Origin: Belliella baltica DSM 15883
Lineage (GTDB): Bacteria > Bacteroidota > Bacteroidia > Cytophagales > Cyclobacteriaceae
Direction of reading: 5' to 3'
Assembly: GCF_000265405.1 (NCBI RefSeq)
Contig: NC_018010.1
Coordinates: forward strand, 1,674,001 to 1,738,000
DNA: 64,000 nt
Positions 14,085-23,195 of this stretch are shown here, one piece after another; the first letter of the stretch is position 1; the number at the start of each line of letters is the position of its first letter. A program made the translations under genes and the position numbers. A model generated the notes under the pieces. It saw nothing but the letters and a program-made list of their open reading frames with translations. It was not told the origin of the DNA and made no database searches.

Positions 14085-15386
14085 TTAAATAAAATCAACC
14101 AACCCCTCCAATTTCATTCCCCTACTACCTTTGATCAGGATCAGATGATCTTCGAACTTGGAGTCTTGAAGCCAGTTTCGGAAGGAAAAAGGATCTGGAA
14201 AATAGAGTGCTTTCATCGGAGCTTTGGCCAAAGCTGCTTGCGTATGCTTGCCGGCAAAGCAAATTTTATCAAAAGCATATTGGCTGACCAATTCACCCAA
14301 TTTCTCGTGTTCAACTTGTGTGCTGTCACCAAGTTCATACATATCTCCTAAGATGATCATTTTGTATTTTTTGCCAGTCATCTCACCAAAAGTCTTGATC
14401 GCAACTTCCATGCTCGATGGGTTGGCATTGTATGCGTCTAGGATGATCAGGTTGCTTCGTTTTTCTACGAGTTGAGAACGCATATTGGAAGGCTTGTAAT
14501 TGACGATAGCCTGAACTGCCTTTTCTATAGAAACACCGAAAAACTTACCTAAAGTAATAGCGGTGGCAATATTCCCAAAGTTATATGCTCCTATCATGGA
14601 ACTAAGATGTGTTGCTTCGCTTCCTTCTACTTTGAATCTTACAAAGGGATTGGCATCCACAAACTCAACTTCACAAAAATCTCCTTTTGCAGGGTAGAGA
14701 ATTGGGTTTTCAAATCGCTTAGCCATATTGGAAAGGATAGGGTCCTGGGAATTGATAAAGACAGTTCCTTTGTGTGCTCTTAAGTGTTGAAACAACTCGG
14801 TTTTGGTTTTCAAGACTCCTTCTGGTCCTCCCATACCTTCCAAGTGAGCCTTTCCGATATTGGTGATAAACCCATGTGTAGGTTCTGCGATGTCACAAAG
14901 TTCTTTGATATCGCCTTGCTTGTTGGCGCCCATCTCTATAATCGCAATTTCGGTATCTTTTTCTATTGCGAGCAATGTTAATGGCACTCCAATGTGGTTG
15001 TTTAGATTCCCTACTGTGGCTGAAGTTTTAAATTTTTGCTTTAGAACAGCGTGGAGGAGTTCTTTGGATGTAGTCTTACCATTACTGCCTGTTAGTCCTA
15101 TGATGGGAATACTGAGTTGTCTTCTGTGATGCAGGGCTAGTTGCTGTAAAGCAGTCAAAACATCCTCAACTAGAAAATATCTCGTGTCATTATTCGGGAT
15201 TACTTCTGCTTCATCTACGACTACCAAAGCGGCACCAATTTCCAATGCCTGTGCTGCAAATGTATTGGCATTGAAATTCGGTCCTTTGAGTGCAAAAAAT
15301 ATATTTCCTTGATCAATTTTCCTTGTATCGGTGCTGACGCCTGTGGATTTGAGAAAGTGTAGGTAGAGAAGTTCGATGTTCATCAT
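14085..15386 (-). CDS. murF: UDP-N-acetylmuramoyl-tripeptide--D-alanyl-D-alanine ligase
   Basis: 433 residues, normal MurF length. It adds D-Ala-D-Ala to UDP-MurNAc-tripeptide in cytoplasmic peptidoglycan synthesis. Seen in order: N-terminal domain with STDTRKIDQGNIFFALKGPN, the ATP loop GLTGSNGKTTSKELL, the central EMGANKQGDIKELCDIAEP, and the C-terminal domain with DAYNANPSSMEVAI and LGDMYELG. Start ATG at 15386 (MMNIELLYLHF) or the adjacent ATG at 15383. It is divergent from the exported FG-GAP gene with a 75-nt shared promoter region. Here it stands apart from the main mur cluster. Confidence 0.96.
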   Translation of the reverse strand: MMNIELLYLHFLKSTGVSTDTRKIDQGNIFFALKGPNFNANTFAAQALEIGAALVVVDEAEVIPNNDTRYFLVEDVLTALQQLALHHRRQLSIPIIGLTGSNGKTTSKELLHAVLKQKFKTSATVGNLNNHIGVPLTLLAIEKDTEIAIIEMGANKQGDIKELCDIAEPTHGFITNIGKAHLEGMGGPEGVLKTKTELFQHLRAHKGTVFINSQDPILSNMAKRFENPILYPAKGDFCEVEFVDANPFVRFKVEGSEATHLSSMIGAYNFGNIATAITLGKFFGVSIEKAVQAIVNYKPSNMRSQLVEKRSNLIILDAYNANPSSMEVAIKTFGEMTGKKYKMIILGDMYELGDSTQVEHEKLGELVSQYAFDKICFAGKHTQAALAKAPMKALYFPDPFSFRNWLQDSKFEDHLILIKGSRGMKLEGLVDFI

Positions 15387-15461
15387 TTATTTTTTACGAA
15401 TAATCTTTAAAATTAAGATATTCGAAACATCTTTATCAAAATTCTGTCGTTATTTATATCC

Positions 15462-17567
15462 ATGATCAAGTATTTTACTTTTTTATTCCTTTTCACTTTG
15501 AGCGCGAGTTTAGCGCAAACTTCTTTTCAATTTGATCAAAATATAAATCTCACTCAAAATGGTGGGAATTTAGAATTGCCCTTTGCAGGAGGACTAAACG
15601 CCGCTCAGATCCAAACAATGGATGTGAATGGAGATGGTGAAGATGAAATGGTCATTTGGGATATCAATGCCCGTCAGATTTCTGTTTTTAAGATTGAAAA
15701 TGATGTTTACACTTTCTTCCCTGAGATGGCTTACTATTTTCCTTCTGATGTAAATGGGTTTTTGGTTCTAGCTGACTTTGATGGCGATGGGAAAAAAGAT
15801 CTTTTTACAAGTAGTCCTTTTGGAATTAGAGCTTATAAAAATGTTAGTCCTGTTGGAGCTACTTTCCCAAGTTGGGAATTGGCTCAGAACTTTCTAAGAC
15901 TTGACAACAACTCCAACCTTCAAGCGAACAATCTTGATATTCCATTGATTTTGGATGTAGATGGAGATGGAGATTTGGATATTGCCACTTTCAATTTCGC
16001 TTCAGGGGATTTTTTGGAGTTTTACAGAAATACATCCATCGAACGAAAAGGTTTTGCAGATGTTGATGGTTTTGCTTTTCCAGAGCCGAGATGGGGAGAA
16101 TTTGAGTTCTGCAGTTGCGGAAGCTTTAGCTTTGGAGTTACTTGTTCAGGATTACCTATTGGTAGGATTCTCGATGATGAAAATCAGAGAATTCAACATG
16201 CTGGAGGTCATTCGATTTTATACTCGGACTTCAATGGAGATGGTATTTTTGATTTGTTGATGGGTCAAGATGAATGTGATGTACTTTATTATTTGCCCAA
16301 CAAAGGAACGAATGCAACACCAATTTTTGATGAATTTGCGACTTCGCTTCCTAATATTGGAGATTTACCAGAGTTTCCTATTTTTCATGCTGCACAGCTC
16401 TGGGAAAATCAACTTTTAATAAGTACAAATTCTTCTGCTATTGCGGGTATCTTTCGAGCTGATTATGCTAAAAATATATTTTCTATTCCCCTAGAAGGAG
16501 GAAATATTCAGCCTTTTCTTCAAAATCGGATGTTGGATTTAGGAGAAAATACAAGACCTTTTTTTCAAGGAAATAAGTTAAATGGGTCACTTCTACTCTA
16601 GGCAAATTCTTTAATCGGGAATCGGGTTGTAGGGAATTTGAATCGGATATCTGTTACAGAACAAGCTTGGGAAGTCGTTGAGGAAGATTATTTAGGATTA
16701 TCGGAACTTGATTTGACTGATTTGCAATTCCAAGCTTTCAGAAATGCACAAGGGCAAGAGAGTTTTTGGTTGGCAGGAACAGATACTATGAATTTATCCT
16801 TAGTCAAAAAGTTATTTTACACAACACAATCAAACCTTCAAAATCTTCAAGAAACCAATGTTTCAGGTATTACACCAAGGCCTTTGGATCATTTTGAGTT
16901 TTTTTCTTTTGAAAATCAAGATTATGCCTTGTTGGCAAGGCAAACAGGGGAGTTGATTTTATTTGGGGTGAATTTTTTGAATGCTTTACCACAGCTTAGC
17001 CTCTTAGAAAGGAATTTCTTAGGATTCCAAGATAATCCTTCATCCCGTAATCTCAATGTTCATGTTGTTGCAGGGCAGCGACCGAGTTTGTATGCAGTAG
17101 ATCAGCGGGGTGGTGTATTATACATTTCCGATTTTATGGATTCAGCTGTTAGAGAAGAGGTTTTGGTTAGAATAGGAGAAGAGTTTCGACCTACAAGACT
17201 CGGTAGAAATACTTGGGTTAGCTCCATTCCTGATGCATTTGGATCTGATTATGATTTGCTTTTGGGGACGACAGCAGGAGGTTTGATTTATCTCAAAACT
17301 TCTGAGTCAGTAGATGGTCCTAGTTCTGAGGAGTTTTTAGTAAAGGTATTTCCTAATCCAACTGATGGCCCTATTCGCGTGATTGCGAATCAATCAGCAG
17401 TAGTTCAGTTGGTAAACAGTCTGGGACAAGTTTTATTAGATGATATAGAGATTCAAGCTAATCGAGAAGTTGAGCTGCAATCCAACGCTTTAGCTTCAGG
17501 TGTTTATTTTTTGAGCTTTAGAGTTGAGAAAGGTGCCGTTTATAGCAAAAAAGTAATAGTTCGATAA
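15462..17567 (+). pseudogene. T9SS-exported FG-GAP/VCBS repeat protein broken by one in-frame TAG
   Basis: A single frame from ATG 15462 (signal peptide IKYFTFLFLFTLSASLAQ) to 17567 would encode about 700 residues but has one internal TAG at 16599-16601 (KLNGSLLL*ANSLIGNRVV). No other stop or shift is present. Before the break are several Ca-binding FG-GAP style repeats (DVNGDGEDEMVIWD, LADFDGDGKKDLF, DVDGDGDLDIATF, DFNGDGIFDLLMG). The 3' piece ends in a type IX secretion type A sorting domain (KVFPNPTDGPIRV...LASGVYFLSF). A product stopped at TAG would lose its sorting signal and could not be exported by T9SS. CAG, AAG or TGG to TAG are the simplest origins; a sequencing error cannot be excluded. 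Confidence 0.85.
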
Positions 17568-17573
17568 TGACCT

Positions 17574-17590
17574 ATCCGTGCTAGTGGGTA
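17574..17590 (+). promoter_or_regulatory. 17-nt motif ATCCGTGCTAGTGGGTA, copy 1
   Basis: Identical to the sequence at 19585-19601. It lies 91 nt before the start of the exported protein gene at 17682. The second copy is 84 nt before a LuxR-type regulator gene, in the opposite orientation relative to that gene. Proposed operator for the regulator; see findings. Confidence 0.55.
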
Positions 17591-17681
17591 GATGAATATA
17601 CAATTTTTTGGGTATGGTGTTCAGGACTATGGTTTTGCAGTTTTGTAGAAAGAATTTTATCCCAACGAAACCAAAAAAATC

Positions 17682-18713
17682 ATGAAAAAAATCATCTTAT
17701 CTGCAGCGATCATCAGTTTATCTGTAGGATCTCTATTTGCTCAGGAAATGTTCAATGGATTTGGAGCTAAAGGCTTTTATAACAAATCTCTAAAAAATCA
17801 GGAATCATTTTATATTCCTCAAATGCAGATTGGGTTTGAAACTTATGTAGAAACCAAACAGGTAGAGAAGGAATCAAAACTCAGCGCTTTTGCAAATAAT
17901 ATGGCAGCTCATAGTAAAGGGGGGCAATATAGTGGAAGACAGTCTAGCTCAGCAAGGGTAACAACTATTTTGAATGCTGGAATGGAGCTTTCTGATTTTC
18001 AGTTACTTGCTGATGACTTTCATGAAATTTTAGAAAATGAAATTGAGAAAGCTGGATTTAATGTTTTGCAGATGGAAGAAGTTGATAAACTAGAAAGTTT
18101 TCAAAAGATAAAAGATAAATATTCTGATAAAACTGAGAAAAAACAAAGTAAAGCAGATCCAAATGATGTTGGGTTTGGTACTGTAAAAGTATATCCAAAT
18201 CATACATTATTTATGTTTGACGAAAAATCAGTGATGAAAGGTGGTGGTCCAGCTTTTTATGGAATGCTTAAAAAAGTTCATGCTGAAACAAATGCTGCTA
18301 TGATTTTGCAAAATCTAACAATAGATTTTTCAACGGTTGATTTGGAAGTTGAAATAGATGCAGGAACAAGAGGCAAAACCACAACTGCAGAAATGAAGAT
18401 ACTTCCTAAAATGCGAATAACTTATAATATCATGGATTTTATAACCCCGAAAGGAGGACCAAATTCTGCTCCAGCCAGCCTTTCTACTGAGTTTATTTCT
18501 AGCAAAGAATATAATGCTAATATTTATACTGATAAAGACAAAGCTGAAAGTTTGTTCAAAAAGTTTTTTGCGATTGGTGTTCCAAGTGTTGATTTTGATC
18601 CCAGAATAATAGAAATGTCTAAAGAAGACTATATGGCAGCAGCCAAAGACCTTTTTACCCAATACTCACAAGAGTTTGCAAAAGCATTGGTCGTTGGGGC
18701 CAAAGGGAAGTAA
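17682..18713 (+). CDS. Exported protein of unknown function
   Basis: 343 residues with a standard signal peptide (MKKIILSAAIISLSVGSLFAQ). No lipobox and no T9SS sorting domain is present. The mature part is lysine-rich, with a charged middle (SDKTEKKQSKADPNDVG) and beta-type segments near VDLEVEIDAGTRGKTTTAEM. It is probably periplasmic or surface-associated. No family is recognised. A 17-nt motif shared with the LuxR-type regulator locus lies upstream, and a strong terminator follows. It may therefore belong to the regulon of the two-component system encoded at 18.9-21.6 kb. Confidence 0.8.
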   Translation: MKKIILSAAIISLSVGSLFAQEMFNGFGAKGFYNKSLKNQESFYIPQMQIGFETYVETKQVEKESKLSAFANNMAAHSKGGQYSGRQSSSARVTTILNAGMELSDFQLLADDFHEILENEIEKAGFNVLQMEEVDKLESFQKIKDKYSDKTEKKQSKADPNDVGFGTVKVYPNHTLFMFDEKSVMKGGGPAFYGMLKKVHAETNAAMILQNLTIDFSTVDLEVEIDAGTRGKTTTAEMKILPKMRITYNIMDFITPKGGPNSAPASLSTEFISSKEYNANIYTDKDKAESLFKKFFAIGVPSVDFDPRIIEMSKEDYMAAAKDLFTQYSQEFAKALVVGAKGK

Positions 18714-18729
18714 TAAATTTACTGACCAG

Positions 18730-18754
18730 AGCCAAGGTGAGAGCCTTGGCTTTT
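18730..18754 (+). terminator. Intrinsic terminator of the exported-protein gene
   Basis: Stem AGCCAAGG (18730-18737) and CCTTGGCT (18744-18751) with a 6-nt loop, followed by TTT. It begins 17 nt after the stop codon. Confidence 0.85.
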
Positions 18755-18882
18755 ACTTTCTTCAACTTATTCAAAGGTATTTTTATATTTGGAATCTGAG
18801 ACATTTTTCAATTGAGGATATAAGCCACTTAAAGCCCAATGGATTAAACTGAAAAGTGGATTTCATTTTTGAAGTAGGTAAA

Positions 18883-19500
18883 TCAGATCAAATTATTGGC
18901 ATAAGCGAACTTGATTAAGCCTACAAGGGAGTTAGTCTTTGTCTTTCGGAATATATTTTTCCTATGGGTCTCTACAGTACGCTCGGAGATAAAAAGTTGC
19001 TCAGCAATTTCTTTGTTTGAGCATTCTTGTGCGATTAGTTTGAGAATCTCTCGCTCTCGATCAGTAAGCATTTTTTCTTCATCAGGAAACTGAAGGCTAT
19101 TGATGATAATTTTATTGATATCATTACTCAAATAAATTTTCCCTACTTTGACTGCAGAAATAGCTGATAAAAGTTCTTTGTGGCTATCATTCTTAAGAAT
19201 ATAAGCGTGGATTCCTTCTTTGAGGATTTCTTTTACCAAATGGACTTCATCATGCATGCTGAGCATGATGATTTTGGTTTCTGGGCTGATTTTTTTGACT
19301 AATCTGACCAATGCAAGCCCATCTAGACCAGGTAAGTTAAAGTCCGTTATCAGAAGATCTACAGCATTTTGTTTGATAAATTCCAAGGCTTTTTCTGCTG
19401 TGTTTGCTTCCCCAGTAATTTGAAGAGAGTCATCTCTTTCAAGTAAACTTTTAATCCCGTCTAAGAGGATGGCATGATCATCTACCAGAAATACTTTCAT
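18883..19500 (-). CDS. NarL/LuxR-family response regulator
   Basis: About 205 residues from ATG 19500 (MKVFLVDDHAILLDGIKSLL). The open frame extends further upstream, but this start places the receiver domain correctly. The receiver has the DD pair near residue 8, phospho-acceptor Asp in DLLITDFNLPGLDG, Thr/Ser in IIMLSMHD, and Lys in AYILKND. The C-terminal LuxR-type helix-turn-helix is LTDREREILKLIAQECSNKEI followed by SERTVETHRKNIF. It is the cognate regulator of the sensor kinase encoded 103 nt upstream on the same strand. A 17-nt motif lies in that gap. Confidence 0.95.
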   Translation of the reverse strand: MKVFLVDDHAILLDGIKSLLERDDSLQITGEANTAEKALEFIKQNAVDLLITDFNLPGLDGLALVRLVKKISPETKIIMLSMHDEVHLVKEILKEGIHAYILKNDSHKELLSAISAVKVGKIYLSNDINKIIINSLQFPDEEKMLTDREREILKLIAQECSNKEIAEQLFISERTVETHRKNIFRKTKTNSLVGLIKFAYANNLI

Positions 19501-19584
19501 GGCTTTAGGTTTATTGTTAAGTTTCAGAAATTGGTGTACCATTGCAATCATGAAGCAATTTACTTTTGGAAAAGCATATAGAAA

Positions 19585-19601
19585 ATCCGTGCTAGTGGGT
19601 A
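19585..19601 (-). promoter_or_regulatory. 17-nt motif ATCCGTGCTAGTGGGTA, copy 2 (plus-strand reading)
   Basis: Identical to 17574-17590. It lies in the 103-nt gap between the sensor kinase stop (19604) and the regulator start (19500). The spacing fits an autoregulatory operator feeding a promoter for the regulator alone. Confidence 0.55.
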
Positions 19602-19603
19602 TA

Positions 19604-21610
19604 TTATGAGACTAAGGTGGATTGCTCTATAGCTGACTTTTTCTCTAGTGGAAGATCGATTATGAAGCTACTTCCCGTTCGATCAGGGTGGCTGTCTATT
19701 TCAAAATCAGCCTTGATTCTATTTAGCCTTGATTGAATATTTCTCCAACCATTTCCTAAACTATTCTGGAGTATATTGATGTCAAATCCTTCTCCGTCAT
19801 CTTCAATTAACAAGTTGAGTTCATTATCATGTTGGACCAGCTGTATGGTTATTTTTTGAGCTTTTGAATATTTGATCACATTATTAACCCATTCCTGAAT
19901 GACACGATAAAGGGAGATTTCTTGAATTTCGCTTAGCCTTTTTGACATTTCGTGAGTGTCCACTATGACCTTAATTTTTCCAGAATTGTTGATTCGCTGC
20001 GCAAATTCATTTAGAGATTCTTTGAGACCATACTGTATTAGTGTAGCGGGCATCAAGTTGAAAGCAATGTTTCTGATTTCAGTGTGCATTTCTTTAAGAA
20101 TTTCTTCACTTTTGTCAACTATTGCAGCTTTATTTTCAAGATCTTTTGAATCGTTGTTTAGATTAGAAATTTGTAGTCTCAATGCTGAAATTAGCTGTCC
20201 GAAACCATCGTGGAGGTCTTGTGCAAAACGTTTTCTTTCAAGCTCTTGGGATTCAAGTGCCGAGTTAATGTATGCTTCTTTGATTTCGATTTCCTTTTGT
20301 TGTATCAGAAGTTGGCGTGCTTTTTTTTGTCTGCTCTGATTGAGGATAAAAAGGATGCCTATTAAAATCAAGATCACAAGCAGAGAGAATATGAAAATAA
20401 GGTTTCTCTGATTGCTAGCCTGCTGTCTTGAAAGTTCGGCTTCTTGTAGGATGATTTGGGCTTCTTTTTTTTCTGTCTCGTACTTAGTTTCGATATCAGC
20501 CAATAAGGCTGCCTTGTCTAGGTTGAAAATACTATCTCTAAAAGTTTGGGCGATTTTGAAGAAATTCAAAGCGTTTTTGAATTCACCTTTTTCTTGAAAA
20601 ATATCGCTGAGCACTGTGTGAGAGGATGTTAATAATTTATTATCCTTGATTTTTTCTGATAATTCTAATGACTTTTTTCCATAATCTTCTGCCAAAATAT
20701 AGTTTCCTAATTGAAGTTGGGCTTTGGCCATCGAATGAAGGAGCATAGCGTAGTCATAATCATTATTTAACCTTGATTGATAGATTTCTTGTGATCTGTC
20801 ATAATGAGTAAGCGCTTGATTTGGTTTGCCTTGATCCATATCCAAGTTTCCTAGATTTGTAGAAGCTATAGCCAATGCCTTGTAATCTCCAAGTTGCTCA
20901 GAAGCGATGACGCATTTGTCATAGTAGTATGCTGCAGAATCCAGCGCTTTGAGGTTATGAAAAGTTGATCCCAAATTCAAATAGATCTTTTGAAGATTAT
21001 GCTGGTCATTAACTTTGATTTTTGTTTTTAAAGCATTCTGGTAATAACTCAATGCTTTTGGATTATCTTCTAATAAATAATGGATATTTCCTACAGAGAA
21101 TAGAGAGTTGCCAATCATTTTTTCATCCCCGATTCTTTCAGCTGTTTCTAATGCTCGGATGGCATATTCCAGTGCTTTTCCATAGTCGCTTTTATTTTGA
21201 TAAACCATGGAGAGATTGTTGTAAACTGCTGAAAGTCCTTTGTAATCCTCTTTGGATGAGTAGGCTTTGGCTGATTTATCTAAATAATAAGCTGCCGAAT
21301 CATAAGATGAACTCACCCAATGGACTACTCCAATGACAGTATAAGCATATCCAGCAATGCGAAGACTCTTAATGTTTTCTAACGTCTCCAGACCTTGATA
21401 AGCCAGAGCAAGTGCTTCTTGGTTATCTGAATACATTTTTTGCCAAGCTAAATCCATCAAAGCCTCAGCCTTGATACTGTCTATAGAGGAAGTTTTGATT
21501 ACATTTTCCAAACTATCTAGAACTATAGCTTGATCCTGAGCTTGGCCAATAAGAGGAGTTAAAAAGAAACAGCAGAGTAGAGCTTTTAATTTGATGCTGA
21601 GATTTTTCAT
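19604..21610 (-). CDS. TPR-containing sensor histidine kinase (HisKA_3 type)
   Basis: 668 residues. Signal peptide (LLCCFFLTPLIGQAQ), then about 330 residues of tetratricopeptide repeats (units such as AAYYLDKSAKAYSSKEDYKG and KALEYAIRALETAERIGDEK). A coiled coil follows, then one membrane helix (LIFIFSLLVILILIGILFIL), the phosphorylation helix RKRFAQDLHDGFGQLISALR with its His, and a HATPase with VIQEWVNNVIKYSKA (N box) and IEDDGEGFD (G1). The TPR sensor is periplasmic and the kinase cytoplasmic. It pairs with the LuxR-type regulator downstream. The signal sensed is unknown. Confidence 0.95.
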   Translation of the reverse strand: MKNLSIKLKALLCCFFLTPLIGQAQDQAIVLDSLENVIKTSSIDSIKAEALMDLAWQKMYSDNQEALALAYQGLETLENIKSLRIAGYAYTVIGVVHWVSSSYDSAAYYLDKSAKAYSSKEDYKGLSAVYNNLSMVYQNKSDYGKALEYAIRALETAERIGDEKMIGNSLFSVGNIHYLLEDNPKALSYYQNALKTKIKVNDQHNLQKIYLNLGSTFHNLKALDSAAYYYDKCVIASEQLGDYKALAIASTNLGNLDMDQGKPNQALTHYDRSQEIYQSRLNNDYDYAMLLHSMAKAQLQLGNYILAEDYGKKSLELSEKIKDNKLLTSSHTVLSDIFQEKGEFKNALNFFKIAQTFRDSIFNLDKAALLADIETKYETEKKEAQIILQEAELSRQQASNQRNLIFIFSLLVILILIGILFILNQSRQKKARQLLIQQKEIEIKEAYINSALESQELERKRFAQDLHDGFGQLISALRLQISNLNNDSKDLENKAAIVDKSEEILKEMHTEIRNIAFNLMPATLIQYGLKESLNEFAQRINNSGKIKVIVDTHEMSKRLSEIQEISLYRVIQEWVNNVIKYSKAQKITIQLVQHDNELNLLIEDDGEGFDINILQNSLGNGWRNIQSRLNRIKADFEIDSHPDRTGSSFIIDLPLEKKSAIEQSTLVS

Positions 21611-21862
21611 CGTCTAGGTGATTACATAAACATCTAAACAATATAGCTGATAATTATACTTTTTTAAAAAAAATATGATGTGATTATCTGCTATGACACT
21701 ATTATATGAATATTTCCCTTATGATATTCTAGAAAATTATACACTTTCAATAGCAAGACAGTCCACATTGATGCTACATCGAAGCGCATTAAATTAAGAT
21801 TCTTTTAAGTTTTTACTGCCGTGAAAATATAAATTCATATAATATTCATCAAATGCGAAAAA

Positions 21863-22684
21863 TTAGTAGCTCTCACTTTCGTTGGGGAAGTCTTTTGATT
21901 TGACGTCAGTGATATAATCTTGTACTGCTTTTGTCATGATATTTTGAAGATCGGCGTATTGTCTCAAAAATCTTGGTTTGAACTCTTGTGTGATGCCTAG
22001 CATATCATGAACTACCAAAACTTGTCCATCGACATCGCCACCTGCACCAATTCCTATCACTGGAATAGTCACTGTCTCTGCTACTTTTTTGGCAAGTTTA
22101 GCAGGGATTTTTTCTAAAATCAATGCAAAGCAGCCAGTTTCTTCCAAAATCTTAGCGTCTTCAATCAGTTTGTTTGCTTCTTCCTTTTCCTTGGCTCTTA
22201 CAGTATAAGTTCCAAATTTATAAATGGATTGTGGTGTCAAGCCTAAGTGACCCATCACTGGCACGCCTGCACTCAAAATTCTGGTAATGGACTCTTTAAT
22301 TTCAGATCCTCCTTCTACTTTTACAGCATGTGCACCAGATTCTTTCATTATTCGAATTGCTGACCTTAGGGCCTCAGAACTATTTCCTTGATAGGAACCA
22401 AAAGGGATATCAACAACTACAAAAGCTCTTTTAACACCACGTACGACTGAGCTTGCGTGATAGATCATTTGGTCCATTGTAATAGGTAGAGTGGTTTCGT
22501 GACCTGCCATTACGTTGGATGCGGAATCACCTACTAAGATAATATCTACTCCAGCACCATCAACAATGGTTGCCATAGAATAGTCATAAGCTGTTAGCAT
22601 GGAGATTTTTTCTCCACGAGACTTCATCTCTTGAAGCGTATGTGTGGTGATTCTTTTGATATTGGAAGATTGATGTACAGACAT
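21863..22684 (-). CDS. panB: 3-methyl-2-oxobutanoate hydroxymethyltransferase
   Basis: 273 residues. It makes ketopantoate from 2-oxoisovalerate and methylene-tetrahydrofolate in pantothenate/CoA synthesis. Motifs: [39 protein letters not shown] (metal-binding Asp), [18 protein letters not shown] and the catalytic-Glu region LILEKIPA, then [18 protein letters not shown]. The next gene upstream (phosphoribosyltransferase) ends 7 nt before its start, so the two are coupled. Confidence 0.97.
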
Positions 22685-22691
22685 TTTGGGC

Positions 22692-23195
22692 TTAGTGAAG
22701 GTGGACTGAGTAATTGTCAGTGCTTAGATTGACAGAAATATGTTCGTTGAGGGTTGTTGAAAGTTCTAATCCAGTGTAGTCTGGAGACACAGGGAATAAT
22801 TTATGACTTCTGTTGACTAGAACTGCAAGCTCCATTTTTTTGATTGGAATTTCTAGAAATGGTTTCAGTGCATAGGCTAATGTTTTGCCTGTATTCAGTA
22901 CGTCATCGACTAATATGAGGCATTTATTATTCATATCTATACTTTCAGATAAAGTGACCTTACCTTGGACGATTGACATTTTATCTACGACAACTTCAAT
23001 CGACCCTACTTTTAATGGTGAAATTTCTTTTAATTTCTCTGCCAAAAGTTCAGCTAAGACCTTACCCATTCCCGATATTCCGGCAAAAATAATCTCATCT
23101 TCTGAGGAGTTGCGTTCGTATATTTCATAAGCCATCCGCGTTATTTTTTGTTGGATTTTGCGGTGGTTGAGAACCAGAGTTTTATGATCAATCAT
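22692..23195 (-). CDS. PyrR-like phosphoribosyltransferase family protein
   Basis: 167 residues from ATG 23195 ([19 protein letters not shown]). The frame extends back to 23252, but this start fits the family. The PRPP-binding loop [19 protein letters not shown] is intact. The protein resembles PyrR/hypoxanthine-type phosphoribosyltransferases, whose substrate is a purine or pyrimidine base. Which base, or whether it has a regulatory role, cannot be told from the sequence. It lies in a minus-strand group with panB, rsgA and waaA. Confidence 0.85.

Follow-up and report, generated by a model that had tools for sequence, protein, structure and literature searches.

A 17-nt sequence that stands before an exported-protein gene and before a nearby response regulator gene in a Belliella species (family Cyclobacteriaceae) is very probably (we put it at about 0.85) the core of an 18-bp operator for a dimer of the regulator encoded at 18883–19551, as judged from comparison of related genomes. 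In the window, that is, the whole 64,000-nt stretch of DNA analyzed here, ATCCGTGCTAGTGGGTA occurs exactly on the + strand at 17574–17590 and 19585–19601, and these coordinates, given in an initial annotation of the same DNA, were borne out by our scan. No further match with up to 3 mismatches was found in the window, and 100 dinucleotide shuffles of the window gave a mean of 0.01 matches. Furthermore, the two window copies are the only matches with up to 1 mismatch in the genome, a single contig of 4,196,595 bases, so that the annotation was right to consider a chance repeat unlikely, and the dispersed repeat that it had named as a refutation is excluded. Its suggestion that the 17-mer is the binding site of the regulator, with the exported-protein gene as target, gains support from the comparative evidence described below. 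Beyond that first idea, our comparison points to a dyad with variant forms, a second tandem element, a family of exported proteins, a two-site regulon and a corrected regulator start.

Table 1. Features of the kinase–regulator–exported-protein cluster. Positions are those of the window unless a locus of a relative is named.
Feature	Position	Strand	Basis
FG-GAP / Por_Secre_tail gene, in-frame TAG at 16602–16604	15462–17567	+	domain search, relatives
Operator O1 (17-mer plus one base), asymmetric dimer site ATCCGT-N5-TGGGTA	17574–17591	+	predicted; aligned promoters
Operator-like element O2, ATACAATTTTTTGGGTAT, 6 bp downstream of O1	17598–17615	+	aligned promoters
Candidate promoter: TTTG (17607–17610), 19 nt, TGGTTTTG (17630–17637)	17607–17637	+	by eye
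Exported protein, 343 aa, signal peptide by eye; predicted target gene	17682–18713	+	homology searches
Hairpin followed by T-rich stretch, between convergent exported-protein and regulator genes	18728–18753	.	−17.0 kcal/mol, z −3.77
LuxR/NarL-type response regulator (receiver + GerE), 222 aa from 19551 (205 aa from 19500)	18883–19551	−	domain search
Operator OR, second copy, in the kinase–regulator gap; ATACCCACTAGCACGGAT on the regulator strand	19585–19602	.	predicted
Sensor histidine kinase, 668 aa: signal peptide, TPR repeats, one TM segment, HisKA_3, HATPase	19604–21610	−	domains; by eye
Extra ORF of about 250 aa in relatives	L022:6017–6769, L024:5670–6422, L025:5256–6008, L027:5954–6712		

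As shown in Table 1, copy 1 of the 17-mer is flanked by the FG-GAP/secretion-tail gene and the exported-protein gene, whose ATG (17682) follows after 91 nt, and copy 2 lies 84 nt before the regulator start at 19500 and 33 nt before an in-frame start at 19551. On the regulator strand, copy 2 starts 2 nt past the kinase stop codon (19604–19606) and thus sits within the kinase–regulator gene pair. Sequence identity between the two copies is limited to the 17-mer, their flanks being different, and copy 1 has the orientation of the exported-protein gene while copy 2 is on the strand opposite to the regulator gene. The matched promoter distance on which the initial annotation relied holds for the 91 and 84 nt to the starts that it named, but it is a weaker argument than it seemed, because the copies are oppositely oriented and the regulator gene probably begins 51 nt upstream of the start assumed there.

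The arrangement is conserved in those members of the genus that have the genes. Specifically, the exported-protein gene (E ≤ 0.001) and the regulator (E ≤ 1e-60) were found together in 5/8 genomes (G000, G003, G004, G005 and G007), and both were absent from the remaining 3/8, in which the only site with up to 1 mismatch lay within a coding frame (G006). The relatives G003, G004, G005 and G007 carry the motif with 0–2 mismatches at both positions, where one copy precedes the exported-protein gene and the other separates the TPR-kinase gene from that of the LuxR/NarL-type regulator; this gap site is also present in many other relatives. G008 and G047 have the motif at the exported-protein gene only, G041 has a 1-mismatch motif at the regulator and a degenerate copy (4 mismatches) at the exported-protein gene, and G039 has it at neither position. 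A clear homologue of the exported protein (best E ≤ 1e-50) was present in 18 genomes, and 15 of them had the site upstream, degenerate in 2. For the 3 without it (G039, G157 and G294), the regulator was not found in the fetched 12-kb stretch, nor was it found at E ≤ 1e-50 in the whole genomes of G039 and G294. Against the operator reading, G157 has a regulator (52% identical) on another contig and no site before its exported-protein gene. G107 speaks both ways: in favor, it keeps the site before the exported-protein gene although its regulator is on another contig, 45.7 kb from the contig start; against, it has no site near that regulator.

In the 15 aligned exported-gene promoters, O1 was present in every case (with a degenerate right half in 2 and as a near-perfect inverted repeat in 2) and stood 90–101 nt before the ATG. 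All 15 also have, after a 6-bp gap, an 18-bp element that ends in GGGTAT or a close variant, with the consensus.T.C....T..AGGG.AT at fixed spacing; this element, O2, is probably a second and weaker dimer site. The flanks diverge more than the motif itself, the mean majority fraction over 13 promoters being 0.46 for the left flank, 0.85 for O1, 0.64 for the gap, 0.73 for O2 and 0.54 for the sequence after it. By eye, TTTG-N19-TGGTTTTG resembles the Bacteroidetes TTTG/TAnnTTTG promoter type. Base-for-base conservation of this candidate promoter is absent in the relatives; if used, it would put O1 near −61 and O2 near −37.

The relatives also indicate what kind of site this may be. When a 9-site matrix was scored over the regulator neighborhoods, inverted repeats of the type ATCCGTRCYRGYACGGAT were obtained, and at the orthologous position of the exported-gene promoter a near-perfect inverted repeat is found in G068 (8/8 half-site bases) and G071 (7/8). 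We therefore read the window's own sites, in which half-site symmetry is 3/8 bases for O1 and 4/8 for OR, as asymmetric forms of a dimer operator; the dyad is read from the relatives and not from the symmetry of the window sites. Each site would then be a quasi-symmetric pair of the half-sites ATCCGTRC and ATACCCAC that can work in either orientation, and such an asymmetric dimer operator would explain the opposite orientation of the two copies. More remote regulators have a third form, for example ATACCGTGAAAACGGTAT. Among 69 regulator loci, with up to 1 mismatch and within 3.5 kb, the form a/a occurred in 15, a/b in 33 and b/b in 32, proportions that lean upwards because some of the loci had been fetched for holding a motif, and none of the three was found in 9/69. 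With eight scrambled patterns per form, searched over the initial 9 kb per locus, 0–5 loci were obtained for a/a, 0–2 for a/b and 1–10 for b/b. In 68/69 regulators, the recognition helix shows little or no variation (the exception, L174, was missed by the search pattern), consistent with one shared half-site core.

The regulator itself has both domains above cut-off (PF00072, E 1.5e-25; PF00196, E 5.6e-21), and its best PDB match is NarL (1a04, E 1.9e-29), in alignment with which the DDH and D-x-N-x-PG motifs match, and the phospho-acceptor Asp and the acidic pair are conserved. In many of the related regulators, the N terminus is extended in frame by about 14–25 residues. Together with the position of the gap site about 29–36 nt ahead of the extended start in the window's closer relatives, and with the short-form start of relatives that have no gap site (e.g., G008, G113, G125, G068 and G071), this makes 19551 the likelier start, so that translation probably begins there rather than at 19500. 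The extension (19551–19501 in the window) is of the type MNLLSF..K in remote relatives and is perhaps amphipathic.

From the domains, we propose that the TPR kinase senses a signal and phosphorylates the regulator, whose dimer would then bind O1, and probably the weaker O2 too, upstream of the exported-gene promoter. The regulator would also bind OR between the kinase and regulator genes and adjust its own expression. Activation of the exported-protein gene from O1 seems fairly likely. The opposite sign, in which the regulator represses at both places, with OR blocking its own transcription and O1 silencing the exported-protein gene until the signal arrives, is compatible with the operator claim, and we consider it rather unlikely. 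OR, at 33 nt before the likely start codon, is awkwardly placed for a classical activator site and more like a repressor or road-block; it may serve an internal promoter, a repressor or a road-block. On the other hand, the position of O1 at 91 nt before the ATG and the adjoining O2 recall the tandem NarL sites that activation requires at the E. coli ogt promoter, where the spacing is different (PMC7419079).

The association of site and regulator was then examined over the family. In 295 Cyclobacteriaceae genomes, the asymmetric pattern ATCCGTRSYAGWGGGTA with up to 1 mismatch gave 131 sites in 92/295 genomes, 22 of them with zero mismatch, and the regulator (E ≤ 1e-50, up to 10 candidates scored per genome) was found in 99/295. 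All 22 zero-mismatch sites were in the 99 regulator-bearing genomes, and none was found in the 196 regulator-less genomes; sites with up to 1 mismatch were present in 60/99 regulator-bearing genomes versus 32/196 regulator-less ones, family counts to which we attach no p-value since the genomes are not independent. As many as 39/131 sites lay within 3.5 kb of the regulator gene, against 0.15 expected as computed for 5.2-Mb genomes (16/22 zero-mismatch and 23/109 one-mismatch sites), and these 39 were distributed over 30 genomes and 13 genera with differing neighbors. Many of the remaining one-mismatch sites are probably background, and a reversed control pattern also matched many genomes in the family scan.

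The palindromic pattern ATCCGTRSYRSYACGGAT gave at least 75 sites. Among the matches listed, 27 had zero mismatch, all 27 in regulator-bearing genomes and 13 within 3.5 kb of the regulator, and 48 had one mismatch, with 26/48 in regulator-bearing and 22/48 in regulator-less genomes and 12 within 3.5 kb. Against the operator reading, among regulators 60–70% identical to that of the window only 11/47 had an asymmetric site with up to 1 mismatch within 3.5 kb, or 18/47 when palindromic sites were included. A search for the regulator outside the family, at E ≤ 1e-60 in 194 genomes drawn from the order, matched 10, all of which belong to the same family.

These counts bear on the possibility that the sites are operators of another, co-occurring transcription factor, with the adjacent regulator merely among its targets. 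Auto-regulation by the adjacent regulator is indeed assumed in our reading, and the 9 loci of 69 without a recognizable site nearby would fit such a factor; however, the recurrence of sites beside this type of regulator in 13 genera among differing neighbors, and the lack of any zero-mismatch site in the 196 regulator-less genomes, make it improbable. A transcribed RNA element at both places (terminator, attenuator or sRNA target) is more improbable still. OR does lie between genes that are probably co-transcribed, but one copy has the sense of its gene and the other the opposite sense, no unusual fold was obtained (z 0.16 to −1.42), no Rfam match was found in 15000–23000 at gathering thresholds, and the relatives have a DNA dyad. 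Finally, a chance or mobile repeat is refuted by there being two copies only in 4.2 Mb at up to 1 mismatch and by their being kept in place across genera.

Within the window's own genome, the operator for the adjacent regulator would have a narrow reach. With up to 2 mismatches, the 17-mer gave 6 matches (the two sites included) versus 6 for the reversed control, and the palindromic form gave 51 places, none exact, versus 79 control places. A larger regulon in this genome was therefore rejected, and with only two sites above background the system would be a small, clean circuit to test. In other genomes, genes near such sites code for a PQQ-propeller protein, a barrel protein of the outer membrane and a DUF6252 protein. 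G041 and G124 have a common zero-mismatch site at a distant locus (L101:5887 and L112:5519) near similar exported-type genes, for which no Pfam match was obtained (three scanned in L101); this suggests that, in that genus, some targets lie at a distance from the regulator gene.

The kinase has TPR_12 (5.1e-33) followed by HisKA_3 (1.6e-10) and HATPase_c (4.3e-9). By eye, its translation shows a signal peptide and a single TM segment, so that the TPR part is probably periplasmic. For the exported protein, no family was found in Pfam or NCBIfam and no convincing relative in PDB by sequence (best E 0.12), and its 22 homologues gave weak single matches only in Pfam (best E 0.0023). Its AlphaFold model is moderate (pLDDT 71.4, pTM 0.74). 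A relationship to CsgG was considered and, at the level of sequence, rejected, as the profile gave an hhalign probability of 0.1 against six CsgG homologues and there was no Pfam CsgG match. Iterative searching of 774 ORFs from the fetched loci with the 22-homologue profile enlarged the family to 41 members; 36 of them are in regulator loci, and for 35 of these the regulator is no more than 2.8 kb away. Upstream of 24/41 members, within 260 nt, there was an O1-type or palindromic site (up to 2 mismatches), and 17/41 had none. A direct match to the 22-sequence profile was obtained for only 2 remote members (E 4e-8 and 4e-6); when aligned separately, the remote group of 22 matched this profile with an hhalign probability of 98.1%, although drift is possible for single members, since this group was chosen with the enlarged profile. 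The exported protein belongs to a family that lacks annotation and is found repeatedly next to regulators of this kind.

Several further observations concern the cluster. The exported-protein genes of G005 and of G003/G007 have an identical leader directly before the ATG, and their proteins are 86% and 60% identical, respectively, to that of the window; these are signs of coding-region allele replacement (window 17682–18713; L022, L024 and L025). The extra ORF, with an exported-type start, lies between the exported-protein gene and the regulator in G003, G005 and G007, with a putative counterpart in G041, and is absent from the window and G004. The hairpin between the two convergent genes is probably a terminator shared by them. 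The FG-GAP / Por_Secre_tail gene, which adjoins the cluster in the genus relatives too, is open in G003, G004, G005 and G007 (701–715 aa), and the split copy in the window is either a recent pseudogene or a sequence error.

On a more speculative reading, which we consider less likely than not, this would be an undescribed family-wide module, in which a periplasmic-TPR kinase and a NarL-type regulator with a nearly fixed recognition helix, through a common 18-bp operator made of two interchangeable half-site types with cores shifted by 1 bp (a/a, a/b and b/b), would induce a fast-diverging exported partner, maybe a ligand of the TPR sensor or a feedback factor. A literature search, at the level of search results, gave no publication on the 17-mer motif or on a Cyclobacteriaceae TPR-kinase regulon. 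To our knowledge, few operators of response regulators have been described in Bacteroidota, and the search gave none of such kind. The exact repeat yields a testable operator, regulator and target that recur in many genera of Cyclobacteriaceae, and it offers an approach to the function of an exported protein family that has no annotation.

Two known systems are the closest for comparison. The NarL element has the consensus TACYYMT, from which the main half-site ATCCGTRC differs, whereas the other half, TACCCAC, matches it at 6/7 positions. Like NarL, the window regulator consists of a receiver and GerE. NarL binds as a dimer to two 7-bp elements in inverted orientation with 2 bp between them, and activation at the E. 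coli ogt promoter depends on a tandem pair of NarL sites (PMC7419079); sites in relatives have inverted 8-bp half-sites on either side of 2 bp (8-2-8 as against 7-2-7), and the exported-gene promoter has O1 and O2. Unlike the NarL system, the one described here has a kinase with TPR repeats, other targets and a host of another phylum. In the second system, FimS has TPR repeats and FimR is of LuxR type. This pair is, like ours, a sensor kinase and response regulator of Bacteroidota, and in Porphyromonas gingivalis FimR is a direct activator of mfa1 that binds to its promoter (PMC1974823, the main text of which has 0 occurrences of “motif” and “palindrom”). Against the NCBIfam FimS model NF053520, the window kinase scored 94.8 bits (residues 163–614), below the equivalog cut-off of 600 bits, and we therefore rejected its assignment as FimS. 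The target also differs, being an exported protein without annotation here and a fimbrial gene in the FimS/FimR system.
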